DNA of 64,000 bases from Actinostola sp. cb2023. Lineage: Eukaryota > Cnidaria > Anthozoa > Actiniaria > Actinostolidae. Positions 1,285 to 64,000 of the stretch are shown here, piece after piece; within the stretch, counting starts at the first letter, position 1; the number at the start of each line of letters is the position of its first letter. The stretch covers positions 65,001 through 129,000 of the forward strand of contig JAUJYZ010000376.1 in NCBI GenBank assembly GCA_033675265.1. Reading direction: 5' to 3'. Both the position numbers and the translations under genes were made by a program. Below the pieces are notes generated by a model that was not told where the DNA came from, did no database searches, and saw nothing but the letters and a program-made list of their open reading frames with translations.

Positions 1285-4200
1285 GTAAGTACACCAGGCA
1301 CTGTGAACCTGAGTAATTGAGATACATGTTCATTGTTTACTCTATGTCGTCAACAAATTGACCACCTTTCTTATCAATACTTTTGCCCTGATTGTCAGGT
1401 ATGAGAAAATGGCCAAAACTCTTTACCAGGATTTAGATTCAGTAAAAAGTGCCAAAAAACACAAGGATCCACCTCCTAAATTCCATTATGAAAATAAAAC
1501 TTTTACTCTAGTGCAGTAAGTATGCTAGTAGTCAACTGTATTTCACCCATTCATTTATCCATCCATCCATCTCCATCATTAATTCATTCATCCATCTATC
1601 TCCATTCATTCATTTATCCATCCTTCCATCTCCATTCATTCATTCCATCCATCCATTTGTTCATTCCATCCATCCATTCATCCATTCATTTATCCATCCA
1701 TCCACCCATCCATTCATTCATTCATTCATTCATTTATCCATCCATCCATCCATCTCCATTCATTTGTCCATCCATCCATTTGTTCATTCCATCCATTCAT
1801 CCATTCATTTATCCATCCATCCATCTCCATTCATTCATTTATCCATCCATCCATTTGTTCATTCCATCCATTCATCCATTCATTTATCCATCCATCCATC
1901 CATCCATCTCCATTCATTCATTCATTCATTTGTCCATCCATCCATTTGTTCATTCCATCCATTCATCTATCCATTCATTTATCCATCCATCCATTCATCT
2001 CCATTCATTCATTTATCCATCCATTCATTTATTCATCCATTCATTTATCCATCCATCCATTTGTTCATTCCATCCATTCATCATCCATTCATTTATCCAT
2101 CCATCCATCCATCTCCATTCATTCATTTATCCATCCATTCATTTATTCCATCCATCCATTCATTCATTTATCCATTCATCCATCTTCATTCATTCATTTA
2201 TCCATCCATCCATCTCCATTCATTCATTTATCCATCCATTCATTTATCCATCCATTCATTTATCCATCCATCCATTTGTTCATTCCATCCATTCATTCAT
2301 TCATTTATCCATCCATCCATCTCCATTCATTCATTTATCCATCCATTCATTTAGCCATCCATTCATTTATCCATCCATCCATTTGTTCATTCCATCCATT
2401 CATCCATCCATTCATTTATCCATCCATCCATCCATCCATCCATCTCCATTCATTCATTTATTCATTCATTTATCCATCCATCCACATGATCATTCCATCC
2501 ATTCATCCATTCATTTATCCATCCATCCATCCATCTCCACTCATTCATTTATCCATCCATCCATTTGTTTATTCCATCCATCCATTCATTCATTTATCCA
2601 TCCATCCATTTGTTTATTCCATCCATCCATTCATTCATTTATCCATCCATCCATTTGTTTATTCCATCCATCCATTCATTCATTTATCCATCCATCCATT
2701 TGTTTATTCCATCCATCCATTCATTTATCCATCCATCCATTTGTTCATTCCATTCATCCATTCATTTCCATCCATTCATTTATCCATTTATTTATCCATC
2801 CATCTCCATGCATTCATTCATCCATCCATCCTGTTTTTTTCTCATTCATCACACATGACATAATCAGCCTTGTTTCACATGTTTGTGTTCATAGTTCATT
2901 CCCAGAACTGAGTGATTCTCAGGTGGAAATAGAGATTGTTCGATGTCTTAATATTCCTCTTCCGTCAGGTATGTCAGTATTATCGTACAATCAATACAAG
3001 GTTAATGTTTCGCTCAAGTAGTGCGCGTAACAATACATAATTGATTCATATGAAAAACATGTGAACTGATGAAAGTGAGGACGACCATCTGGTAAATATA
3101 CTTTGACGTTTTGAATATTGCCTTAACTATAAGTGCTCACCAGTGTAACTTTAATATCTCTAGATATTTGTGACTTACGAATAATGTAATAAAGGACAGT
3201 TTGAAACTGGTGGCAACATATTCATTCAGTTCTGACCATTAATTATCGTAATATCTGTGTAATCATACAATTCTCTGTACATTCAGGTTATGAACCAAAG
3301 GACATGTATACCTATGTATCGTTTGAATTCCCATATATCTGTGTAATCATACAATTCTCTGTACATTCAGGTTATGAACCAAAGGACATGTATACCTATG
3401 TATCGTTTGAATTCCCATATATCTGTGTAATCATACAATTCTCTGTACATTCAGGTTATGAACCAAAGGACATGTATACCTATGTATCGTTTGAATTCCC
3501 ATATATCTGTGTAATCATACAATTCTCTTCAGGTTATGAACCAAAGGACATGTATACCTATGTATCGTTTGAATTCCCATATATCTGTGTAATCATACAA
3601 TTCTCTGTACATTCAGGTTATGAACCAAAGGACATGTATACCTATGTATCGTTTGAATTCCCATATATCTGTGTAATCATACAATTCTCTGTACATTCAG
3701 GTTATGAACCAAAGGACATGTATACCTATGTATCGTTTGAATTCCCATATATCTGTGTAATCATACAATTCTCTTCAGGTTATGAACCAAAGGACATGTA
3801 TACCTATGTATCGTTTGAATTCCCATATATCTGTGTAATCATACAATTCTCTTCAGGTTATGAACCAAAGGACATGTATACCTATGTATCGTTTGAATTC
3901 CCATATCCAAATGTAAGTATGTGCTGAGTGCATAATTACAGTGAAGGAAGAAAATGAAGCTTTTTTGATTTTTTTTCTTCTTCCTTTAGCCAGAGGAACC
4001 TCAGAGTGGAAGAAGTAAAACGGTTAAACACTCCATCAATCCTGGTGAGATTGCTATTCTTTTCTTTTTCTCCTCTCGATGGAAATGAGGATGATCTGCA
4101 GTAATGACCCTACAATTCTCTAGCCCTATCAGGTTTGCACCATCCATGCCCCTAGGCCACCATCACTTCCCCTATCTTCCTAGGGTCCTACACCCTATTC

Positions 4201-7200
4201 ATGCACCAAATCCATGCCCACCATCCATTCCCCAATTCCCATCCCTTCCTAGGGTCCTACACCCTATCATTGCACCATCCATGCCCCAAGGCCACCATCA
4301 CTTCCCCATCCCTTCCTAGGGTCCTACACCCTATCATTGCACCATCCATGCCCCAAGGCCACCATCCCTTCCCCATTTTTCCTAGGGTCCTACACCCTAT
4401 CATTGCACCATCCATGCCCCAAGGCCACCATCCCTTCCCCATCCCTTTCTAGGGTCCTACACCCTATCATTGCACCATCCATGCCCCAAGGCCACCATCC
4501 CTTCCCCATCCCTTCCTAGGGTCCTACACCCTATCATTGCACCATCCATGCCCCAAGGCCACCATCACTTCCCCATCCCTTTCTAGGGTCCTACACCCTA
4601 TCATTGCACCATCCATGCCCCAAGGCCACCATCACTTCCCCATCCCTTCCTAGGGTCCTACACCCTATCATTGCACCATCCATGCCCCAAGGCCACCATC
4701 CCTTCCCCATCCCTTCCTAGGGTCCTACACCCTATCATTGCACCATCCATGCCCCAAGGCCAACATCCCTTTCCCATCCCTTCCTAGGGTCCTACACCCT
4801 ATCATTGCACCATCCATGCCCCAAGGCCAACATCCCTTCCCCATCCCTTCCTAGGGTCCTACACCCTATCATTGCACCATCCATGCCCCAAGGCCAACAT
4901 CCCTTCCCCATCCCTTCCTAGGGTCCTACACCCTATCATTGCACCATCCATGCCCCAAGGCCACCATCCCTTCCCCATCCCTTCCTAGGGTCCTACTCCC
5001 TATCATTGCACCATCCATGCCCCAAGGCCACCATCCCTTCCCCATCCCTTCCTAGGGTCCTACTCCCTATCATTGCACCATCCATGCCCCAAGGCCACCA
5101 TCACTTCCCCATCCTTTCCTAGGGTCCTACGCCCTATCATTGCACCATCCATGCCCCAAGGCCACCATCCCTTCCCCATCCCTTCCTAGGGTCCTACGCC
5201 CTATCATTGCACCATCCATGCCCCAAGGCCACCATCCTTCCCCATCCCTTCCTAGGGTCCTACACCCTATCATTGCACCATCCATTAATGAAATGAAAAT
5301 TAATGTTTGTGTCGATTGTAAATGATCACCTTTATTACAGACTTTAATGAATCGTTCAAAGTCAACATAGACCGAAAGAACAGAGCTTTAGCAAGAATAT
5401 TCAGAAGACAGACAGTCAAATTTGAAATCAAGTACGAAAGGTGAGTCTTCGGTCAGTATGGTCAGCAGCCTTTCTCCCAAGCATCTTATAAACGCGTTAG
5501 TAAGAGCATGTTGAGCAAGGAAGCGCTGAGCAAGGAAGCGCTGAGCAAGGAAGCACTAAGCAAGGAAGCACTAAGCAAGGAAGTGCTGAGCAAGGAAGCA
5601 CTAAGCAAGGAAGTGCTGAGCAATCCAAGCACTAAGCAAGGAAGCACTAAGCAAAGAAGCGCTGAGCAAAGAAGCGCTGAGCAAGGAAGCACTAAGCAAG
5701 GAAGCGCTGAGCAAGGAAGCACTAAGCAAGGAAGCACTAAGCAAGGAAGTGCTGAGCAAGGAAGCGCTGAGCAAGGAAGCGCTGAGCAAGGAAGCACTAA
5801 GCAAGGGAAGCGCTGAGCAAGGAAGCACTAAGCAAGGAAGCGCTGAGCAAGGAAGCACTAAGCAAGGAAGCACTAAGCAAGAAATGCTGAGCAAGGAAGC
5901 ACTAAGCAAGGAAGTGCTGAGCAAGGAAGCACTAAGCAAGGAAGCACTAAGCAAGGAAGTGCTGAGCAAGGAAGCACTAAGCAAGGAAGCACTAAGCAAG
6001 GAAGCGCTGAGCAAAGAAGCGCTGAGCAAGGAAGCGCTGAGCAAGGAAGCGTTGAGCAAGGGAAGCACTAAGCAAGGAAGCGCTGAGCAAAGAAGCGCTG
6101 AGCAAGGAAGCGCTGAGCAAGGAAGCACTAAGCAAGGAAGCACTAAGCAAGGAAGTGCTGAGCAAGGAAGCACTAAGCAAGGAAGTGCTGAGCAAGGAAG
6201 CACTAAGCAAGGAAGCACTAAGCAAGGAAGTGCTGAGCAAGGAAGCACTAAGCAAGGAAGCACTAAGCAAGGAAGCGCTGAGCAAAGAAGCGCTGAGCAA
6301 GGAAGCGCTGAGCAAGGAAGCGCTGAGCAAGGAAGCACTAAGCAAGGAAGCACTAAGCAAGGAAGTGCTGAGCAAGGAAGCGCTGAGCAAGGAAGCACTA
6401 AGCAAGGAAGCGCTGAGCAAGGAAGCGCTGAGCAAGGAAGCGCTGAGCAAGGAAGCGCTGAGCAAGGAAGCGCTGAGCAAGGACGCGCTGAGCAAGGAAG
6501 CGCTGAGCAAGGAAGCGTTGAGCAAGGAAGCGCTGAGCAAGGATGCGCTGAGCAAGGATGCGCTAAGCAAGGAAGCGCTGAGCAAGGAAGCGCTGAGCAA
6601 GGAAGCGTTGAGCAAGGAAGCCGTTGAGCAAGGAAGCGTTGAGCAAGGAAGCGTTGAGCAAGGAAGCGCTGAGCAAGGAAGCGTTGAGCAAGGAAGCCGT
6701 TGAGCAAGGAAGCGTTGAGCAAGGAAGCGTTGAGCAAGGAAGCGTTGAGCAAGGAAGCGTTGAGCAAGGAAGCGTTGAGGAAGGAAGCGCTGAGCAAGGA
6801 AGCGCTGAGCAAGGAAGCCGTTGAGCAAGGAAGCCGTTGAGCAAGGAAGCGTTGAGCAAGGAAGCGTTGAGCAAGGAAGCGTTGAGCAAGGAAGCGTTGA
6901 GCAAGGAAGCGTTGAGCAAGGAAGCGCTGAGCAAGGAAGCGCTGAGCAAGGAAGCGCTGAGCAAGGAAGCGCTGAGCAAGGAAGCGCTGAGCAAGGAAGC
7001 GCTGAGCAAGGAAGCGTTGAGCAAGGAAGCGTTGAGCAAGGAAGCGTTGAGCAAGGAAGCGCTAAGCAAGGAAGCGCTGAGCAAGGAAGCGTTGAGCAAG
7101 GAAGCGTTGAGCAAGGAAGCGTTGAGCAAGGATGCGTTGAGCAAGGATGCGCTGAGCAAGGATGCGCTGAGCAAGGAAGCGTTGAGCAAGGAAGCGTTGA

Positions 7201-8247
7201 GCAAGGATGCGCTGAGCAAGGATGCGCTAAGCAAGGAAGCGCTGAGCAAGGAAGCGTTGAGCAAGGAAGCGTTGAGCAAGGAAGCCGTTGAGCAAGGAAG
7301 CGTTGAGCAAGGAAGCGTTGAGCAAGGAAGCGTTGAGCAAGGAAGCGTTGAGCAAGGAAGCCGTTGAGCAAGGAAGCGTTGAGCAAGGAAGCGTTGAGCA
7401 AGGAAGCGTTGAGCAAGGAAGCGTTGAGCAAGGAAGTGCTGAGCAAGGAAGCGCTGAACAACCTGGGTACTAAACATGTTTAGGGAATCTCTTTCTTCTG
7501 TCTTTTTCAGAGGTTTTCTCAAAGGAGACAAAGCTTTGGGTCAGGCTCAAGTTAAACTCGCCCCATTTGACTCGAAATCTGAAATACACGAATGTCTCGA
7601 TGTAAGTATTATTTGCCTGTCTGTCTGCCTGACTGTCTGTCTGTCAATCTGACTCTCTGCCTGACTGTCTGTCTATCTGTCTGACTGACTCTCTGCCTGA
7701 CTGTCTGTCTGTCTGTCTGTCTGTCGGTTTGACTGACTGTCGGTCTGGCTGTCTGTCTGTCTGTCAATCTGACTCTCTGCCTGACTGTCTGTCTGTCTGA
7801 CTGACTCTCTGCCTGACTGTCTGTCTGTCTGACTGTCTGTCGGTTTGACTGGCTGTCGGTCTGACTGTCTGTCTGTCAATCTGACTCAAGTTTATCAGTC
7901 TGAGACTGTTTAGTGTCACCCTCATAAAATAAAGTCTTTTGATTTGATTTGATTTGATTTGACTCTGCCTGACTGTCTGTCTGTCTGTCTGACTGACTCT
8001 CTGCCTGACTGTCTGTTTGTCTGTCGGTTTGACTGACTGTCGGTCTGCCTGATTGTCTGTCGGTTTGACTGACTGACTGTCGGTCTATCTGTAGTCTATC
8101 TGTCTGTCTGTCTGTCTGACTGACTCTCTTTTAATTATTTAATTATTTAATAGATAAAATTATTAACTTAATTTATTAATCATTTTAACGACTTTCATGT
8201 AAGGATGGGCTCCTGACTTATGGAATTATCGTTTTTAAATAAAGGTG

Positions 8248-8285
<38 letters not shown>

Positions 8286-11200
8286 GCCTGACTGTCTGTC
8301 TGTCTGACTGTCTGTCTGTCTATCGGTTTGACTGACTGTCGGTCTGACTGCCTGACTGTCGGTTTGACTGACTGACTGTCGGTCTATCTGTAGTCTATCT
8401 GTCTGTCTGTCTGTCTTTACATATTGCTTTTCTAATATATATTTTGTTTCGTGTTGTTCTCAGTTGATGGACACAGAGCGCGGTCGAAGGGCTGTTGGCG
8501 GTAAAGTAGAAGTGAGATTAAAAATACGAGAACCGCTGACTGACAAAGACGTGCAGATAGAGAACTGGAAATGGCTTGTTATTGATATGCACATCGGAGG
8601 ACGAAGAGTAAGTACCATTAGACTAGACGTCATTATCTCCATGACGACAATGGCACTTTGACCCAGTGAAATAATATGTACTTATTGACTGAGTGGGAGG
8701 TGCGCTCGTTCCGTACAAATGACCAAGAGCCAAACATTTTCCCGTCATATTTTATCAAAAGTCTTCTTTCAGTCTGAGCTAAAACCAAAATACATCTGAG
8801 TTCACTTATTGTTCTTCGAGAGCGTTCATAGTCACTATAATTGAGTGTGGAGTACGTCCGTGAGCTCCTGTCTTCACGACGGTTTGACATCAACTGAATA
8901 ATTTTAAATTTTACCCATGATTCTGCGCGGGGTAGTGACCATCCTCCTCTGACCCAGTTTTTTGTTACATAAAGGAATGAAGAAACCCTGTAAAACAAAT
9001 AAAAATAGCGCGCGGAAACTGATAAAATTCAGTTAGGTTGGTCCCTTACGCCATCACGTCCGTACTCCATCACGCGACTTTTTCCGAAGGATTTATTAAG
9101 AGCGCGCGAGTCGGGAAATACCGGTCATACTTCCCACAAAACGACTCTAACCACTGGATTTCACTTTAGTTTTGCACCCCAACTGTAGAGTTACTTGAGT
9201 TTTTGATGCGCTTCTCTTCCAACGAATATTTACAAGACTGACTAGCAAAGACATGATTTCCTTGGCATGCAATGTGTCATGCAATCCAATGAGAACGAAT
9301 ACATTGTTAAAGCCTCACAAGCTTTAGTTGCCGTTGCCCTCGTCGTTGCTGGTTTAATCCCTGGAGATTTAAAGTACAAAGACTATCCATGTTGGTTGAA
9401 CAAACAAGAGAAGCTAATGAGGAATGCTTTGTAATCGGGAACCAACATGGCCACCATGACGTCACGTGCAAACCAGCAATAGAGCTCGGTAAACGATGAG
9501 GTCAAGTCAGTAGAAATCTTAACCTTAATGTTTCTGTTCTTTTTATTCCTTCTGCAGGCGCCAGAACTCGATGTGGTAAGTCATTGTGACATTTCCTCTT
9601 CTTCTTCTTCTCCTCGTTCTCTTTCTTCTTCTCCTCGTTCTCTTTCTTTTCCTTCTCGCTCATCCACCACCACGTTGTGCTCAAATGCATGGTTTGTTAT
9701 TTTCTGTTCAGGAATCTATAACAGCACGAAAATCGCCCAAACCAGGACGAACAGTGAACCAGGGAAGGTAGGCCACTGTCAAACTGTCATCTTATGCCTT
9801 CACTAGCGATGCAAGCACACTTCAGGTGTCGTGTAAAAACGGGCCCGACTCAAGCACACAAGCACAATAAATAGTTCCTTGTGCTTATGCTTGCATCAGG
9901 CCAGTTTTCACAGTGACATAAGGTCTATTGTGCTTATGCTTGCATCAGGCCAGTTTTCACAGTGACATAAGGTCTATTGTGCTTATGCTTGCATCAGGCC
10001 AGTTTTCACAGTGACATAAGGTCTATTGTGGTTATGCTTGCATCAGGCCAGTTTTTACAGTGACATAGGCTTTATTGTGCTTATGCTTGCATCAGGCCAC
10101 TTTTCACAGTGACATGAGGTCTATTGTGCTTATGCTTGCATCAGGCCAGTATTCACAGTGACATAAGGTCTATTGTACTTATGCTTGCATCAGGCACAGT
10201 GAAATAAGTAAGGTCTATTGTGCTTATGCTTGTGTCGAAAAGCAAGCTTTAGTTTTTAGTGTAGCTACTTTTAGTTTGCACTGGAAAAACGCACTTATAC
10301 TCATATGTTTAAACTTCTGAAAATTGCATTTCTGCAATGGCAGCGTTTTTCCAATTTCTCCATCGACGCGTTGAATATCACAGTTACCAAAAGCAACTCA
10401 CCCATATTTTCCTTCCCATAATTCTGGTACGTTTGATCCTAACTCGTGCTTTTCGTTAAGAGTTTTTGTAGCCCCTGAATGCAGGGAACCCACGTGTATT
10501 TGGGCCTGCGTACATATATCTATGTGTTGATTAATTCAGAGAAATTCCTGACACGTGTTTTATTATTACATAGCACAGATACTACGCGCGCTCTTATTGG
10601 TCAATTAGCGGGCCGTAACTTCCCATACAGCCCGCTGAAAACAGAAACGTAAGGAAAACCTATATAATAAATATCTTATTAACCTCGCTTGCTCGTTCCG
10701 TACGGGAAGTTATGGATCCTCGCTTTTTCCGCGCTCGGTTAATAAGAGGTATTTATATTTATTGGTTTGGTTTGCTATTTCGAAATAGTGTTTTATTGTT
10801 CTGCTTTAGTGTCTGGTCCAGGCCCACTCGTATACGTTTTGGTCCTGACTGGTAAGCTTTTTAAAAAAAACTCCGTTTTCAAATCGCTTACTTGTGGACG
10901 GAAGACCAAAACGGAGAAAAAAATCGTTTTCAAATACAAACGTTTACGTGTGGAAACAGGCAGCCCAGCATAATACATGTTGCGCGCATACAAATATCTT
11001 TTAGCCTCAGAAGCAATGGTTGGGCTGCCTGTGGTGTGGACGGGGCCTTGCTACGTAAAGCTATATTGTTTTTTTCGTCTTCTCATAGACGTTTTCTTCT
11101 TTCATCTTAGTGCCAACTCCAAAATCTGTTCTCTTTCTTGACTAGCTGAGAGTGAACGACAACAATATCACAACCTGGCTGAAGGCTGTTCCTGACTCCT

Positions 11201-13936
11201 TGTATTCACTCATTCCCTCCCCGACTTCATTCCTCCATTCTTCCATCCATCTTTCCATCTTTATTCGCTTCTCTTTCTATAATATTATTATATCCACACA
11301 ATGATTGTTATTAGGCTTACTGGGCTTATAAAGACAATGAATCGAATTATGTCAGCCGGCCAGTTACACGAGTTTGTACAGAATTAGTCGAATAATAAAT
11401 AATGTTTATGAATGAATTTCACAAGAAAATTAAACAATATGCATTGATTCTGCCTATTATTTCCACTCTGCGTGATCGACAACCAACGAACAGAATTTAG
11501 AATCGTTTTCGTACGAGTGGGAAGCGTAATGAAAGAGTTTGATTGGATTAGATACATCTGCACGCTTTTTGATTGGTTCAAGGAAGCCATTTGAGTGTCA
11601 CGGTACTGTAGGGTTCCCAGGATCCCGGTTCCCACTCGTACGAAAACAACTCTATTGTTTTTGGTAACTGTGATAAACGGAGCGTGTATGATTTTCATTT
11701 ATACATAATGGCATATGACCAATATACCTTGGTTTGCTATTATTCCTTGTACAATATGATGAACCAAAACGCGCCGGTGTCACAGAATGTGTCACAGTAT
11801 TATTGTATCCCCATGAGGCCGTGAGGCCGTGAGGCCGTGATATGTGTATCGTCGTGAGGCCGTGATATGTGTATCCCCGTGAGGCCGTGATATGTGTCCC
11901 CATGAGGCCGTGAGGCCGTGAGGCCGTGAGGCCGTGATATGTGTATCGTCGTGAGGCCGTGATATGTGTATCCCCGTGAGGCCGTGATATGTGTATCCCC
12001 GTGAGGCCGTGATATGTGTATCCCCGTGAGGCCGTGATATGTGTATCCCCGTGAGGCCGTGATATGTGTATCCCCGTGAGGCCGTGATATGTGTATATCC
12101 CGTGAGGCCGTGATATGTGTATGTGTATCCCCGTGAGGCCGTGTGATATATCCCCGTGAGGCCGTATGTATATGAGGCCCTCGTGAGGCCGTGATATGTG
12201 TATCCCCGTGAGGCCGTGATGTGTATCCCCCGTGATATGTGTATCCCCGTGAGGCCGTGATATGTGTATCCCCGTGAGGCCGTGATATGTGTATCCCCGT
12301 GAGGCCGTGATATGTGTATCCCCGTGAGGCCGTGATATGTGTATCCCCGTGAGGCCGTGATATGTGTATCCCCGTGAGGCCGTGATATGTGTATCCCCGT
12401 GAGGCCGTGATATGTGTATCCCCGTGAGGCCGTGATATGTGTATCCCCGTGTGATATGTGTATCCCCGTGAGGCCGTGATATGTGTATCCCCGTGATCCC
12501 CGTGTATCCCCGTGATATGTGTATCCCCGTGAGGCCGTGATATGTGTATCCCCGTGAGGCCGTGATATGTGTATCCCCGTGAGGCCGTGATATGTGTATC
12601 CCCGTGAGGCCGTGATATGTGTATCCCCGTGAGGCCGTGATATGTGTATCCGTGAGGCCGTGAGGCCGTGATATGTGTATCCCCGTGAGGCCGTGATATG
12701 TGTATCCCCGTGAGGCCGTGTGATCCCCGTGAGGCCGTGATATGTGTATCCCCGTGAGGCCGTGATATGTGTATCCCCGTGAGGCCGTGATATGTGTATC
12801 CCCGTGAGGCCGTGATATGTGTATCCCCGTGAGGCCGTGATATGTGTATCCCCGTGAGGCCGTGATATGTGTATCCCCGTGAGGCCGTGATATGTGTATC
12901 CCCGTGAGGCCGTGATATGTGTATCCCCGTGAGGCCGTGATATGTGTATCCCCGTGAGGCCGTGATATGTGTATCCCCGTGAGGCCGTATCCCCGTGAGG
13001 TATCCCCCGTGATATGTGTATCCCCGTGAGGCCGTGATATGTGTATCCCCGTGATGATATCCCCGTGAGGCCGTGATATTTGTATCCCCCCGTGATGGTA
13101 TCCCCGTGATGATATGTGTATCCCCGTGAGGCCGTGATATGTGTATCCCCCGTGATATGTGTATCCCCGTGAGGCCGTGATATATCCCCGTGAGGCCGTG
13201 ATATGTGTATCCCCGTGAGGCCGTGATATGTGTATCCCCCGTGATATGTGTATCCCCGTGCCGTGATATGTGTATCCCCCCGTGAGGCCGTGATATGTGT
13301 ATCCCCGTGAGGCCGTGATATGTGTATCCCCGTGAGGCCGTGATATGTGTATCCCCGTGAGGCCGTGATATGTGTATCCCCGTGAGGCCGTGATATGTGT
13401 ATCCCCGTGAGGCCGTGATATGTGTATCCCGGTGTATCCCCGTGAGGCCGTGATATGTGTATCCCCGTGAGGCCGTGATATGTGTGTATCCCCGTGAGGC
13501 CGTGATATGTGTATCCCCGTGAGGCCGTGATATATGTGTATCCCCGTGAGGCCGTGATATGTGTATCCCTGTGTATCCCCGTGAGGCCGTGATATGTGTA
13601 TCCCCGTGAGGCCGTGATATGTGTATTCCCCGTCTTCACGTTACGTAGTGTTTATAAATGGACTCGTTATTATCGATACAGCATAGATGACCTAGTAAGC
13701 TTTGAAGAGTTGAAGATGGAAAAGCTGTTGGCTGACAGACAGGTACGCCATCTTCCTTTCTCTTTGATTAGCATACATATACTTTACAGTTTTATGGTAA
13801 TCATTATTATATTCTTAGTTATTTCTTAAAATTTCTTAATTATTGTAATTAGTATTATTGTAATTAGTAATCGAGGGCCACAAGTTTATCAGTTACTTTA
13901 CATTACTGTCAAGTGTTACCCTCTCTAAATAAAGTC

Positions 13937-13976
<40 letters not shown>

Positions 13977-16430
13977 ATTATTATTATTATTATTATTATT
14001 ATTGTTATAGTATTTTTATTATTATTATTAGGAGTTGTTCCAGGTTTAGGACTGGATTGAATGGGTACCCTGTGTTAACGGAAGGGAAGAGGAAGGTCTG
14101 GGGACGATGAGGTAACGAGAGAGGAAACATCAACCTCGTCTCCAGAGCCATCTCTTCTCGCTCTTTTCAAAATGGCGCTCGTGAAAATGGGGAGAAGAGA
14201 GGGCCCTGGGGACGAGGTTGACCCTTTCCTCTCTCGTTCCCAGACCTTCCTCTTCCCTCCGTTAACACAGGATACCCATTCAATCCAGTCCTAATCTACT
14301 GGCCCCGGTTGTACGAAAGGTGAATAGCGCTATCCACCGGATATAAAGTGGATAAAATTTATTGGATAACTGCATCAGTTTTATCCGTTGGATAAGAGTT
14401 ATCCGGTGGATAGCGCTATTCACCTTTCATGCAACCGGGGACTGGAGTCGAAGCTGGAACAACTCCAAAGAGAAAGACACTTTTTTTTTGTTTAATTGCT
14501 GGTTTGCAATACACGTCACGGCGGCCATCTTGGTTGAACTTCAACAAAAGATTGCTCATTAGTGTCTATTGTTTGTTCAACCAACATGGCCGCCGTGTTT
14601 TTATCTCTTGATTCTCAAGCGGGGATTGATTGAAAACCAAGAATTGGTTACCACAGGTAACCCACTCGAATAATGGAGTAACTTCAAGTGTGTTTCTTAT
14701 TTTAAGATTTCAGCACAAAAAGCCAAAGGCCAGTCACCATCTCTACCCCTTGTCAATCGATACAAAGAGATTAACCAGAAGATGAATGAAACCCAGTCAA
14801 TGCTTAACAGTGCTGATAAGAAAGCTCTTCAGAGTAAGTCTGTAACACCCTTCCCTCCTTCTCCCCAGACCCCCAACCCTTCCCTCCTTCTCCCCAGACC
14901 CCCAACCCTTCCCTCCTTCTCCCCAGACCCCAACCCTTCCCTCCTTCTCCCCAGACCCTTCCCTCCCCCCAACCCTTCCCTCCTTCTCCCCAGACCCCCA
15001 ACCCTTCCCTCCTTCTCCCCAGACCCCCAACCCTTCCCTCCTTCTCCCCAGACCCCCAACCCTTCCCTCCTTCTCCCCAGACCCCCAACCCTTCCCTCCT
15101 TCTCCCCAGACCCCCAACCCTTCCCTCCTTCTCCCCAGACCCCCAAACCTTCCCTCCTTCTCTCCAGACCCCCAACCCTTCCCTCCTTCTCCCCAGACCC
15201 CCAACCCTTCCCTCCTTCTCCCCAGACCCCCAACCCTTCCCTCCTTCTCCCCAGACCCCCAACCCTTCCTTCCTTCTCCCCAGACCCCCAAACCTTCCTT
15301 CCTTCTCCCCAGACCCCCAAACCTTTGCAGACAAGTTAATACGAAATATATGGCAGTTTAATAAGAAGTTTAAAATATATGGAGGTACGTTTCAGTGGCC
15401 TGGGACCGAGCGGGTATCCATAAGGGGAGGTTCCACTGTAGTTTAGACTGAGGTTTGACACAAAGATTTAAAACTATCTACAGATTACGTGTACCAGCTT
15501 ACGAGTCAGATGAAGGTGGAGCAGGCGAATGCCCAGACGGCTTTGCAAACCGGCAATAAAGTAAGAAATATTCATCAGCTCTGCGATGCTAATCGTAGGG
15601 TTCAAAAAGATTTCAGTGTTTCCATTTACTTCAGATAAAATACGTATTAAATGTATCGTCAATAACTCAGGGTTGGTTGAGTAGCGTCGGTTGCTTCAAA
15701 ATAAAACCATTTGAGAGCAGCTGTCACGATGAAGCCATTCAAGTGTTCTGACGCGATTGTGAATGGTTGAGATTAACGCTTTATGATTGGTCCAGAATAA
15801 AGCCTTTGGAATCCACCTGGCACTGAAAAAATGGCCCCATAAAAAATAATCCAATTTTCGTTGTTTTAATTCTTTTTTATTGTTTGACTTCTATTCGTCA
15901 CCAGACCGAGGCTCAACTCTGTCTTACTCGCAAGAAACTAATGCAGAATGAGGTGAGCATAAGAAGAAAAACTGTTTGAGAAAACTGTCTCTTTACATGT
16001 GACTTCTCAGTAGAACCACAGGGGGGGGGGTACTTATGGATTAAGAGTGACGGGGAGGTGCGAAAGAAGTCAAAATTAAACACCCCCCCCCCCCCCCCCC
16101 CAAATAAAAGTCCAATACGAATAAAACTCAACCCCCAAAAAGTACAGTCTATTACGTAACCCCATTTTCCCCTTGGCAAAAACGTGCTATAGCCCAAAAA
16201 AGTCCTCCAGAAAATTCGGAACCCAAAACCGTTAATTGATGGTTGTATATTTGTTATTATAGATTATCTCTCTAAAGCCAAAGCTTGGATTGAAGTGAAC
16301 AGGACCTATAGCAAATAGATAGAAAAATTGAAAGTAATTTTCGTAAAAATTTTCGTTAAATTTGGGCGAAGAATTATCAATATGGTAGTTTTGTAAGAGC
16401 ATAGAGAAAATAGTATTATGCTCCCAATAC

Positions 16431-21839: not shown

Positions 21840-24236
21840 AACAGGTTCTTATATAATGGGGGGTTTATAGATCTTAGCCTACAGGTTCTTATCACTATAG
21901 GTTCTTATATAATGGGAGGTTTATAGATCTTAGCCTACAGGTTCTTATCACTAGGTTCTTATATAATGGGAGGTTTATAGATTTTAGCCTACAGGTTCTT
22001 ATCACTATCACTAGGTTCTTATATAATGGGGGGGTTTATAGATCTTAGCCTACAGGTTCTTATCACTAGGTTCTTATATAATGGGAGGTTTATAGATCTT
22101 AGCCTACAGGTTCTTATCACTAGGTTCTTATATAATGGGAGGTTTATAGATTTTAGCCTACAGGTTCTTATCACTAGGTTCTTATATAATGGGGGGTTTA
22201 TAGATCTTAGCCTACAGGTTCTTATCACTAGGTTCTTATATAATGGGAGGTTTATAGACTTTAGCCTACAGGTTCTTATCACTAGGTTCTTATATAATGG
22301 GAGGTTTATAGACTTTAGCCTACAGGTTCTTATCACTAGGTTCTTATATAATGGGAGGTTTATAGACTTTAGCCTACAGGTTCTTATCACTAGGTTCTTA
22401 TATAATGGGGGGTTTATAGATTTTAGCCTACAGGTTCTTATCACTAGGTTCTTATATAATGGGAGGTTTATAGATTTTATCCTACAGGTTCTTATCACTA
22501 GTAGGTTCTTATATAATGGGGGGTTTATAGATCTTAGCCTACAGGTTCTTATCACTAGGTTCTTATATAATGGGAGGTTTATAGACTTTAGCCTACAGGT
22601 TCTTATCACTAGGTTCTTATATAATGGGGGGTTTATAGGTTCTTATCACTAGGTTCTTATATAATGGGAGGTTTATAGACTTTAGCCTACAGGTTCTTAT
22701 CACTAGGTTCTTATATAATGGGACTGAGGTTTATAGATTTTAGCCTACAGGTTCTTATCACTAGGTTCTTATATAATGGGGGGTTTATAGACTTTAGCCT
22801 ACAGGTTCTTATCATCACTAGGTTCTTATATAATGGGGGGTTTATAGACTTTAGCCTACAGGTTCTTATCACTAGGTTCTTATATAATGGGAGGTTTATA
22901 GACTTTAGCCTACAGGTTCTTATCACTAGGTTCTTATATAATGGGGGGTTTATAGATCTTAGCCTACAGGTTCTTATCACTAGGTTCTTATATAATGGGA
23001 GGTTTATAGACTTTAGCCTACAGGTTCTTATCACTAGGTTCTTATATAATGGGGGGTTTATAGATTTTAGCCTACAGGTTCTTATCACTAGGTTCTTATA
23101 TAATGGGAGGTTTATAGATTTTAGCCTACAGGTTCTTATCACTAGGTTCTTATATAATGGGAGGTTTATAGATTTTAGCCTACAGGTTCTTATCACTAGG
23201 TTCTTATATAATGGGAGGTTTATAGATTTTAGCCTACAGGTTCTTATCACTAGGTTCTTATATAATGGGAGGTTTATAGACTTTAGCCTACAGGTTCTTA
23301 TCACTAGGTTCTTATATAATGGGGGGTTTATAGATTTTAGCCTACAGGTTCTTATCACTAGGTTCTTATATAATGGGAGGTTTATAGATTTTAGCCTACA
23401 GGTTCTTATCACTAGGTTCTTATATAATGGGAGGTTTATAGATTTTAGCCTACAGGTTCTTATCACTAGGTTCTTATATAATGGGGGTTTATAGATTTTA
23501 GCCTACAGGTTCTTATCACTAGGTTCTTATATAATGGGAGGTTTATAGATTTTAGCCTACAGGTTCTTATCACTAGGTTCTTATATAATGGGAGGTTTAT
23601 AGACTTTTATTAGCCTACAGGTTCTTATCACTAGGTTCTTATATAATGGGAGTTTTATAGATTTTAGCCTACAGGTTCTTATCACTAGGTTCTTATATAA
23701 TGGGGGGTTTATAGATTTTAGCCTACAGGTTCTTATCACTAGGTTCTTATATAATGGGGGGTTTATAGATTTTAGCCTACAGGTTCTTATCACTAGGTTC
23801 TTATATAATGGGAGGTTTATAGACTTTAGCCTACAGGTTCTTATCACTAGGTTCTTATATAATGGGGGGTTTATAGATTTTAGCCTACAGGTTCTTATCA
23901 CTAGGTTCTTATATAATGGGGGGTTTATAGATTTTAGCCTACAGGTTCTTATCACTAGGTTCTTATATAATGGGGGGTTTATAGATTTTAGCCTACAGGT
24001 TCTTATCACTAGGTTCTTATATAATGGGAGTTTTATAGATTTTAGCCTACAGGTTCTTATCACTAGGTTCTTATATAATGGGAGGTTTATAGACTTTAGC
24101 CTACAGGTTCTTATCACTAGGTTCTTATATAATGGGGGGTTTATAGATTTTAGCCTACAGGTTCTTATCACTAGGTTCTTATATAATGGGAGGTTTATAG
24201 ACTTTAGCCTACAGGTTCTTATCACTAGGTTCTTAT
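21840..24236. repeat. 54-bp satellite, about 44 copies
   Basis: Unit AGGTTCTTATATAATGGGAG, GTTTATAGACTTTAGCCTAC, AGGTTCTTATCACT. The word AGGTTCTTAT occurs twice per unit. It begins at the 3' edge of the Helentron-like element and ends inside the GPCR stop region. Open frames here are artefacts of the 54-bp (18-codon) length. Confidence 0.97.
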
Positions 24237-25385
24237 ATGCGGGTTTTTACTGTATTGGATGTTAACCGAGTGACGCTTTCTCGCTTTCCTGCAAAGCATC
24301 ACGGTTGCAAAGGCCTGTGCGTAAAACTTACTCATTGTTCCATAGCATATCGGGTGCAGAGCGCTGGGAAAGCATGTCAATAGGTAAGCATACTTGCGTG
24401 TTACCATAAAGTACCTCCATGTCTTGACCGCGCCAGTGTTAAAGTACTCTAACAGAAACAACGTCTGATAAGGAATATAGCAAATCAGATAGACGATGAT
24501 GGCGATGTAGATCATCCTCAGCAAATCACCCTCCATCTCCATTAGCTGTTCGAGGCTTGTCTGCTTATCCTGTACCCCCGTTTGCTTTAAGATACTGATG
24601 GGCTCGTTGGGTAGCGTCTCTACTCTGGCTTCAGGCTCTGCGTCTATCACGCTCGTTATCTGTGAGGTGCTCACCACGTTACAAGGACCTTCTTGTGCGG
24701 TGAGGTGACGTTGGAGCTTCTTTGCGACACCTCCGTACGCAACAACGATGATGACACCTGGCAGCGCAAAATTGAGGATGAATCGAGTGAAGTAGTACTT
24801 TGTAAGCTTGGCAGATGGAAATGTGGCAAGGGTATCGCCGGGAAAGAGCTCTATGCACCAGTACGCCGAGAGATTATTGTTGTAGACGGTTTTAATCTGC
24901 ACGGCAAACATGAATGTTGGACCGCTGACCAGGGTTCCAAGAAACCATAGCAGGACAAGGAAAGAACAGACAAACCTTCCTGACACGTTCAACAGTTGGC
25001 CATTTGAAAAAACCTTGTACCTGAGGAAGGCAATAGCTGCAAGAGACCAAGGAATGACAAAATAGGACGTCAACATAAAAGCATTCACAAGACGACACAT
25101 TGAATCACCAAATGGCCAGGTCATCAGCTCGTCGTACACTTGGAAAAATGGCAGGCAGACCGTCCCTACGAGCTCTGCAATCGCAAGGTTTGTCACCACG
25201 TAGTAGGTACACGGTTTTTTCAGGTGTGGATGCTGACGAAAAGCTTTGACCACCACGAAATTACCGATCAGCGAGGAAACGATAACGATGCCAAAGACGG
25301 CTTGGCGAAACCACACAGAAGCTTTAGGTTCTTCGTATGACACTATAAATGTCGCGGCGGAACTGAGTGAGTGCGAGCTGTTCAT
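24225..25385 (-). CDS. Class A (rhodopsin-like) GPCR, intronless
   Basis: A 386-residue single-exon receptor of the plasma membrane; its ligand cannot be told from sequence. Visible: N-terminal NSS sequon, TM1 with the GN motif (LIGNFVVVKA, about residue 40), TM2 NLAIAEL (E instead of D at 2.50), Cys before TM3 (MCRLV) paired with the ECL2 Cys (YWCIEL), LRY in place of DRY, TM4 Trp (LLWFLG), TM5 Pro (FALPGVII), TM6 CYIPYQ in place of CWxP, TM7 HPICYG in place of NPxxY. The third intracellular loop is long and polar (about residues 230-290). The stop codon and last codons (I-R-T) are formed by the adjoining 54-bp satellite. It shares NLA-I/V-AEL and a non-DRY motif with the receptor at 63462. 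Confidence 0.93.
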   Translation of the reverse strand: MNSSHSLSSAATFIVSYEEPKASVWFRQAVFGIVIVSSLIGNFVVVKAFRQHPHLKKPCTYYVVTNLAIAELVGTVCLPFFQVYDELMTWPFGDSMCRLVNAFMLTSYFVIPWSLAAIAFLRYKVFSNGQLLNVSGRFVCSFLVLLWFLGTLVSGPTFMFAVQIKTVYNNNLSAYWCIELFPGDTLATFPSAKLTKYYFTRFILNFALPGVIIVVAYGGVAKKLQRHLTAQEGPCNVVSTSQITSVIDAEPEARVETLPNEPISILKQTGVQDKQTSLEQLMEMEGDLLRMIYIAIIVYLICYIPYQTLFLLEYFNTGAVKTWRYFMVTRKYAYLLTCFPSALHPICYGTMSKFYAQAFATVMLCRKARKRHSVNIQYSKNPHIRT

Positions 25386-26356
25386 GATAGCGCAGTCTCT
25401 GTATACAAGGCGACTCTAAACTTCTTTTATAGATGTCTTGTCTTTTACTTAACACTAAGCCGTATATCGGAAATGGTCACTCTATAGCTCCCGGTACTGT
25501 GCGGTACTGAGTGTACGTATCCATCGATCACCTACGTGTAAATCCCGAATGACCATTTACCGGTGATTGTCGTCCCAAGAGGTATCAGTATAAGCTGTCG
25601 ACCGAATAAAAATATGCCTTTCTCGAAGCGTCGTACTGACAGAAAACTGTACTTCACATACAATTTCAAGTGCACTCAAGACGCCTTTCAGTACTACTGA
25701 ATGAATGTCAATATCACGATCTTGTAAACTTTTTGTTAAATATCTTTATAGAGCCGACGGCGTTTAATAGAACCATGGTTAGTTTATAAGAGAATAAAAA
25801 ACAAGTTGTCTACGTGTCTCGGCCATTCCAGAATTGTTTGTTTTTTCCGAGAAATGCCTTACACTTAGCCGGGGCACTTAGCTCCAATAACGATGACTTT
25901 CCGGGGATTGAAATCTACATTTGAATTTTCGCCATAAACTGTTTGTTTTCACTAGAGAACTAGCTACAGGCGCTTTTCGTTTGGCTGCATGAAAAACACT
26001 CGGTACTTGACACTGGAATTTCTCCTGCGCCTTCCGGCCGGAACAACGCACGCTCCGGCTTCAAACCTTGGAAATCAGAACTGAACTATTCACAAGGGAT
26101 ATAATTCAACCCCCTTATGAGTTCCTGTGGAAATTCAATCATTGGAAATTCAATTCATTTTTCCGTCACTATCCGTTTAATGCTTTTAGACACGAACACT
26201 TAGTAATGTTGCAAATAAACGATTTAAAACCGACGGAGCTTTTTGGAAACGCTTTCCAAAGTGGTGGGGGGAAACCTTTTTCTGAAAATGCTTGTTTGGA
26301 ACCGAAAAATTTGCTTTCGAAAAATTCGTTTTCATGCCGTTGACGTCGTGTGGGTG
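25386..26356. other. GPCR upstream region
   Basis: Presumed promoter side of the minus-strand receptor; no TATA box or upstream exon could be assigned. No other gene seen. Confidence 0.4.
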
Positions 26357-63293: not shown

Positions 63294-63461
63294 TAAAGTG
63301 CACTGATGAATTTAGAGCTAAACGCGGAAAGCATCAGGTTATGTCGACAGGCGATGCTTGAGAACGTCAGTAAGAAGTGAGTTCTGTTAACAAAGTTGAA
63401 CCAAGTCTTAGTGTCATTTGATTCCTTTCTTTCACTATTTCGCAGGCATTTCCCCCAAGAT

Positions 63462-64000
63462 ATGAAAATGGCTTTCAATACATCAAACGGAACAACTCCT
63501 AACGTCACTGTCACCGAAGAAGAGAGCAGCGCCATCATGGAACCACCCGAGCTTAGAACATTTCGGCGAATTCTCTTTTCGTTTGTGATGCTTTTTGCTT
63601 TGTTTGGCAACGCGATAGTGATTCGAGCAATCCGTTGTGGAGGGAGGTCACGAAAGCCGTTTACACACTATCTGGTCACTAACCTAGCGGTCGCAGAGCT
63701 CTTGAATTCTTTCTTCTTCATCTTCATCTTCTGTCAAGAAGAATCATGGCGCTGGATGTTTGGTAGCTTCATGTGTCATGTTGTTATGCCTGGCGGGATT
63801 GTAACGTTCAGTGTTACTACTGCAACTTTGGCTTGCATTTCATTGTACCGATACCGCGTCTTAGTCACGCCCTACAAGAAATATCCCTCCAAGAAAGCCT
63901 GCCTGATTGTCATCGTTGTCATATGGTTGTACTCGTTTGCGTTTGCAATGCCAATAACGTTGACCACCAAGAATGACTACTACGGTAAGGATTACATTTG
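63462..64000 (+). CDS. Class A GPCR, 5' part, truncated by window end
   Basis: Open from ATG 63462 to the window end (179 codons). N-terminal sequons NTS, NGT and NVT suggest an extracellular N-terminus. TM1 FALFGNAIVIRAI, TM2 NLAVAELLN (E at 2.50), TM3 preceded by Cys (FMCHVV) and ending SLYRYRVL (YRY in place of DRY), TM4 IVVIWLYSFAFAMP. The MKM offers a second possible start at 63468. A strong acceptor (TTTCACTATTTCGCAG, ending 63445) sits 16 nt upstream, so a 5' non-coding exon probably exists. It is close in type to the minus-strand receptor at 24225-25385. Ligand unknown. Confidence 0.9.
   Translation, partial: MKMAFNTSNGTTPNVTVTEEESSAIMEPPELRTFRRILFSFVMLFALFGNAIVIRAIRCGGRSRKPFTHYLVTNLAVAELLNSFFFIFIFCQEESWRWMFGSFMCHVVMPGGIVTFSVTTATLACISLYRYRVLVTPYKKYPSKKACLIVIVVIWLYSFAFAMPITLTTKNDYYGKDYI

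Follow-up and report, generated by a model that had tools for sequence, protein, structure and literature searches.

Within CC2D1 of the sea anemone Actinostola sp., the end of one intron and the start of the exon that follows it are repeated eight times, forming a minisatellite in which eight acceptor-like splice sites precede a single exon donor. The array is read as a young minisatellite that was born across an acceptor. The account favoured here, to which we give close to an even chance, is that splicing mainly employs the last of the eight acceptors, with leaky and in-frame use of the others. All of this lies in a window of 64,000 nucleotides (contig JAUJYZ010000376.1, positions 65,001 to 129,000), in which positions are numbered from 1 and the features of interest are as listed in Table 1.

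The array consists of eight head-to-tail units of 84, 84, 84, 78, 84, 84, 78 and 78 bp, in that order, each joining the 3' end of the intron (36 nt in five copies, 30 nt in three) to the 5'-most 48 nt of the next exon. This exon is coding and 56 nt long, and the repeat unit ends 8 nt before its end; copy 8 alone continues through these 8 nt and into GTAAGT, giving a single exon donor at 3912/3913. Tandem Repeats Finder (TRF) placed the array at 3251-3906 (656 bp, period 84, 8.0 copies, score 1186) and, once a single 6-bp segment (indel) is set aside, the eight copies are one identical sequence. The unit listing and TRF thus agree with the initial annotation, which had described eight copies of an intron end plus exon in 84- or 78-bp units, with a 5' splice site in the last copy only; its remark that the copies look identical holds apart from the one 6-bp indel. 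Head-to-tail copies of a unit of 10-100 bp are what defines a minisatellite, or VNTR, and the array is of this kind. Tandemly duplicated exons are instead recognized by an acceptor and a donor bounding each copy; the array, with its one exon donor, is not of that kind.

Table 1. Features of the repeated splice acceptor of CC2D1 and its surroundings (positions in the window)
Feature	Position	Strand	Evidence and remarks
Upstream CC2D1 exon, first C2 strand	2895..2968	+	donor CAG/GTATGT, score 11.25; tblastn to Nematostella, Actinia and Oculina CC2D1
Unique sequence directly 5' of the array	3230..3243	+	two YTNAY matches, CTGAC (A at -52) and TTAAT (A at -45), relative to acceptor 1
Array of eight intron-end plus exon-start units	3251..3904	+	TRF, unit comparison
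Copy 1, exon part	3287..3334	+	acceptor 3286/3287, long class
Copy 2, exon part	3371..3418	+	acceptor 3370/3371, long class
Copy 3, exon part	3455..3502	+	acceptor 3454/3455, long class
Copy 4, exon part	3533..3580	+	acceptor 3532/3533, short class, better pyrimidine tract
Copy 5, exon part	3617..3664	+	acceptor 3616/3617, long class
Copy 6, exon part	3701..3748	+	acceptor 3700/3701, long class
Copy 7, exon part	3779..3826	+	acceptor 3778/3779, short class
Copy 8, complete 56-nt exon	3857..3912	+	acceptor 3856/3857, short class; donor AAT/GTAAGT, score 9.91
Next CC2D1 exon, beyond a 77-nt intron	3990..4044	+	homology, spliced frame

Within the assembly, the array was found at this locus only. 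A 31-base junction pattern, searched with up to three mismatches through the whole assembly (424,152,321 bases in 1594 contigs), occurs at exactly the eight places in the array, with no reverse or control match, and the whole array used as a query matches its own locus alone. No second haplotype of the array was found within the one assembly searched, and a megablast comparison of the array with plasmids returned no match, as expected.

The assignment of the gene to CC2D1, already made in the initial annotation, is borne out by domain content, structure and homology. Upstream exons encode DM14 (PF21528, 8.7e-34) and exons of the window a C2 domain (PF00168, 2.4e-10), with two DM14 stretches seen ahead of the C-terminal C2, the arrangement by which the CC2D1/Lgd family is recognized. 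The protein matches the solved Lgd/CC2D1 chains 6ei6 (6e-53) and 9vhm (1.1e-48) and has 149 CC2D1 homologues, the best two of which come from the sea anemones Nematostella and Actinia (74% identical); the homologue comparisons below draw on the query plus 120 listed of these 149 (121 sequences). The query used for the Pfam, structure and homologue comparisons included 11111-11145 as the last exon, an assignment since rejected, as homologues put the next exons at 13682, 14707, 15484 and 15905; the array is unaffected. The 5000 bases directly before the window (contig 60001-65000) read N, and the remaining DM14 exons probably fall in this stretch. The Actinia homologue P0002 is without a precomputed Pfam C2 domain, probably because its model runs into the intron past the same donor and not because of a repeat.

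Tandem arrays are also present in the CC2D1 introns 1516-2894, 4045-5340, 5441-7510, 7602-8463, 9768-13681 and 14847-15325, so that they occupy most of the larger introns of the gene, several at 75 nt or less from a splice site, with none in 8608-9557. In intron 5441-7510, a 15-bp unit is repeated 130 times (5512-7461), beginning about 70 nt past the donor; this unit is a multiple of three and open frames in the array reach 335 residues. A long 57-bp array that lies some 21-24 kb before the window begins, with the translation PYPNVIFCYITYMCMYISM, gives weak tblastn matches to the C2 region of CC2D1, which are probably due to chance.

Translation showed that the spliced frame is open into the following exons from all eight acceptors, with a predicted gain to the protein of between 0 and 190 residues, in blocks of 28 or 26. 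The initial claim that any of the acceptors would yield an in-frame CC2D1 mRNA with zero to seven extra blocks is thereby upheld. The same annotation had offered either selection or chance as the reason why two length classes both retain the frame, and of the two chance is sufficient. At 10 of the 19 placed CC2D1 acceptors, the intron tail is open for at least 36 nt in the frame of the exon, and a junction duplication would thus be in frame and open by chance in 1/3 x 10/19 of cases, roughly 1 in 6, with the 6-bp length class costing another factor of 1/3. Since these open tails, together with the one-in-three probability of a unit that is a multiple of three, suffice to account for the frame, selection for it was rejected as unnecessary. 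A dN/dS test is impossible, as the array copies are identical.

The frequency of minisatellites in this genome was estimated from 20 contigs, out of which 20 stretches of 10 kb were drawn at a fixed offset (200 kb in total, 39.3% GC), counting arrays with a period of at least 20, at least 2.8 copies and a match of at least 85%. The sample holds 22 such arrays, covering 5.7% of bases, with periods of 0, 1 and 2 modulo 3 in 10, 8 and 4 cases; the window holds 11, covering 10.8% of bases, 3 of them with a period divisible by three. Neither set of periods calls for selection on frame. Counted once each, the units of these arrays add up to 0.6% of the sample. The published, homology-based gene set of the species comprises 20,812 genes with 6.31 exons each (PMC10803348), which corresponds to about 110,500 acceptors, and an estimated 660 or so of these would fall within one unit if arrays were evenly placed and none had been purged. 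The survival of one in-frame case is therefore to be expected and is no surprise. The window has a second array across a coding boundary: a 54-bp minisatellite of 44 copies (21843-24238) takes in the TAG stop codon of a gene for a rhodopsin-family GPCR on the reverse strand (24225-25415; 7tm_1, 5.2e-32) and starts at this codon. Another rhodopsin-family GPCR begins at 63381-63998 (7tm_1, 4.7e-21) and is cut by the window end.

In such a minisatellite-rich genome, the CC2D1 array may have arisen through slippage or unequal exchange spanning the acceptor, and would then have grown by further exchange, possibly including that of a three-unit block of the long-long-short type. The class order, long-long-long-short-long-long-short-short, holds the long-long-short block twice, as a later three-unit exchange would give. 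The array would have been tolerated because an mRNA spliced at any of the acceptors remains readable.

The initial annotation took the identity of the copies to mean that the array is either young or homogenised. The first of these is the reading adopted here, with the reservation that the identity may partly reflect polishing. According to its description, which lists PacBio and Illumina genome reads, the PacBio reads were assembled in DBG2OLC, and the result was polished by means of Racon and Pilon before reduction in Redundans (PMC10803348). Polishing of this kind may render near-identical units identical, and the apparent 1-nt frameshift noted below is perhaps a residual indel error of the same assembly. 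That the copy number, or the perfect identity of the copies, is partly an artefact is nonetheless improbable: the 656-bp array is far below the 20-kb insert of the PacBio library (PMC10803348), and the two length classes are interspersed, unlike simple stutter. Short-read polishing combined with heterozygosity reduction does make copy identity and fixation uncertain, and a single-copy allele was perhaps discarded. The frameshift itself was seen by tblastn where an exon further 5' in CC2D1 has a run of A, about 9.9 kb before the window start, and suggests either a residual indel, that is, an assembly error, or a real lesion of the gene.

Which acceptor is used was approached along three lines, which point in different directions: splice matrices, the sizes of the resulting intron and exon, and branch-point motifs. 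The matrices were derived from the 20 donors and 19 acceptors of CC2D1 alone, hand-placed from homology and GT/AG, and discriminate weakly. On these matrices, acceptors of the short class (copies 4, 7 and 8) score 7.16 and those of the long class 5.59. The placed sites span both values: the lower score equals or exceeds 9, and the higher 11, of the 19 placed acceptors, and 2.5-3.8% of 1458 AG sites reach these values. One AG 5' of the array (exon start 3164) scores 7.37, higher than all eight array acceptors. Splicing to acceptor 1 would give an intron of 318 nt and an exon of 626 nt, as against 888 nt and 56 nt for acceptor 8, the other CC2D1 exons within the window measuring 18-144 nt. A YTNAY branch-point match whose A falls between -15 and -55 accompanies 17 of the 19 placed acceptors, compared with 486 of the 1458 AG sites. 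Within the array it is found for copy 1 only, in the unique sequence before the array, and for none of copies 2-8 (0/7), which carry relaxed NTNAY matches at -16 to -25. The original branch point was thus perhaps omitted from the repeat, and a scanning mechanism would use acceptor 1 by default.

These features lend some weight to a different account, in which the array is a coding minisatellite: acceptor 1 would be the default site, most mRNAs would contain all eight copies and the C2 loop of CC2D1 would gain 190 residues. In addition to the exclusive position of the YTNAY matches, the shorter intron that acceptor 1 defines fits this account, as does a frame that is open across the entire array and for a further 82 nt 5' of it. 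Against this account, copies 2-8 do carry the relaxed motif, 2 of the 19 placed acceptors likewise lack YTNAY, and the matches before copy 1 are more distant from their acceptor than the nearest match at most other acceptors. Furthermore, acceptor 1 belongs to the lower-scoring class and the exon that it would define is far outside the sizes of CC2D1 exons. Given also the structural evidence discussed below, this account is considered unlikely, while still deserving serious attention.

A further possibility is that each CAG/GTTATG junction acts as both acceptor and donor, such that the copies are removed singly, either as introns gained by tandem duplication or through recursive splicing, and the protein is unchanged. 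All eight junctions read AG/GT, the frame is kept whatever whole number of units is removed, GTT donors after AAG apparently occur in three CC2D1 introns as placed (GTTTAA, GTTAGA and GTTTGT), and intron gain by tandem duplication is known from potato, ATP2A1 and fission yeast (PMC4974935). Against this, CAG/GTTATG scores 0.53 as a donor, lower than 19 of the 20 placed donors and equalled by 22% of 1252 GT sites. Judged by this score, neither the Rogers/Hellsten AGGT model of intron gain by tandem duplication nor recursive splicing seems to describe the array, and removal of single copies is improbable. The best score of any internal GT in a unit is 2.3, as compared with 9.9 at the exon donor.

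The consequences for the protein depend on where in the C2 domain the extra blocks would be inserted. In an AlphaFold2 model of the homologue P0003, which was built with 19 others in the alignment and has a pLDDT of at least 88 in the blocks around the insertion point, this point falls between residues 177 and 178, within the segment 171-183 that separates the strands 161-170 and 184-195. On this predicted structure, the insert would fall between C2 strands one and two, in a loop and not in a strand. The Pfam C2 match begins at profile position 2 without inserts and at position 22 with either one or all seven extra blocks; the match thus loses the first strand. The proposal of a length-tunable C2 strand in the initial annotation must accordingly be revised, as the insertion point is in a loop of the predicted homologue model and the C2 match of the expanded protein starts past the first strand.

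In the query and in every one of the 120 listed homologues (121/121), the loop at the insertion point is 6-11 residues long, with 11 in 92 of these sequences. This uniformity speaks for the unexpanded product as the one that is needed, and the absence of a loop of more than 11 residues from all 120 listed homologues (0/120) argues against the coding-minisatellite account. In fly Lgd, regions flanking the C2 domain are required for protein stability or function (PMC11275157), from which we infer that a large insert in a C2 loop may well be harmful.

Predictions for the repeated peptide itself were also obtained. The eight-block peptide, modelled alone with AlphaFold2, is beta-rich, with 15 strands, a pLDDT of 70.7 and a pTM of 0.70, a point for the coding-minisatellite account. 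However, of the 136 matches that a Foldseek comparison of this model with the PDB gave at E <= 10, not one reached E <= 0.001. A regular appearance is also common when perfect repeats are modelled from a single sequence, for which reason the fold is given little weight. The 208-residue repeat block found no match at E <= 0.001 among 3684 candidates from a set of 5.8 billion proteins (0/3684); this search says nothing on expression, as the CC2D1 of the species itself is absent from the hits. When a 664-residue query with three extra blocks was scored over residues 398-512, four coral proteins matched 31% of the region, an extent that fits the single-copy exon.

Taken together, these considerations return us to the reading in which the last acceptor is the main site and the remainder leak, which this analysis would place at about even. 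Copy 8 would prevail on account of its better pyrimidine tract and because the exon that it defines is of normal size, 56 nt. It is favoured by the preference for the distal site in the human CBS 844ins68 duplication, the closest two-copy precedent (discussed below), and by the lack of any longer loop among the listed homologues. Splicing to an earlier copy would insert blocks of 26-28 residues into this loop, which separates the first two C2 strands. A bolder reading, which we regard as doubtful, is that of a live ladder, in which CC2D1 is made as a length series with zero to seven beta-rich blocks of 26-28 residues in its first C2 loop. The mix would be set by the branch point before copy 1 acting against the better pyrimidine tract of the last copy, and would shift as units are gained or lost. 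If true, a splice-site minisatellite would here act as an in-frame dial for one protein loop.

The array has parallels among several known repeated splicing units. Tandemly duplicated exons and viral repeat exons, such as the W repeats of EBV, have an acceptor and a donor in each unit. The array shares with them its many repeated splicing units and predicted in-frame products, and differs in that the exon donor is found in its last copy only. The VNTR in intron 18 of ABCA7 has a 25-bp unit with the exon 18 donor, and transcripts that retain one unit are observed (PMC5954066). In ABCA7 the minisatellite unit bears a splice site, so that several equivalent sites compete, as the acceptor-like sites of the array may do; in contrast, it is the donor that is repeated in ABCA7, and retention breaks the frame because the unit is not a multiple of three. 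The 31-bp VNTR of CBS straddles the border of exon 13 and intron 13 (PMC1395315, PMC2630376) and likewise spans an exon-intron border, although it lies on the donor side of the exon and 31 bp is not a multiple of three.

Two junction duplications are similar in geometry. In CBS 844ins68, the intron 7/exon 8 junction is duplicated, and splicing shows a strong preference for the distal site and gives a normal mRNA; the paper words the sites as donors (PMC2630376), whereas by geometry they are two acceptors before one donor, as in the array. CBS has two copies as opposed to eight here, and is a human polymorphism with RNA evidence. In a potato RdRp gene (PGSC0003DMG402000361), a junction duplication was followed by use of a cryptic donor in the exon, which made the second acceptor the end of a new intron (PMC4974935). 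Its unit, like that of the array, comprises the 3' side of an intron and the 5' side of an exon; it differs in having two copies and a cryptic donor that is used, the donors within the array unit being weak. The array thus appears to join both the splice-site VNTRs (ABCA7 and CBS) and the junction duplications (CBS 844ins68 and potato RdRp), and what is new is the greater number of copies, the location on the acceptor side and the retention of frame. No published case of many tandem acceptors before one donor was found in the literature searched, which covered few subscription papers and some sources in part.

With eight acceptors that are nearly identical, fall into two classes 6 bp apart in length and share one donor in a single transcript, the array constitutes a natural test of splice-site choice. 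Copy 1 would be chosen if scanning begins from the branch point and copy 8 under exon definition, whereas competition would give a ladder of products. As the frame is kept in every case, nonsense-mediated decay should conceal none of these outcomes. The array also illustrates how a minisatellite-rich genome could make intron sequence into repeated coding sequence in a single step.
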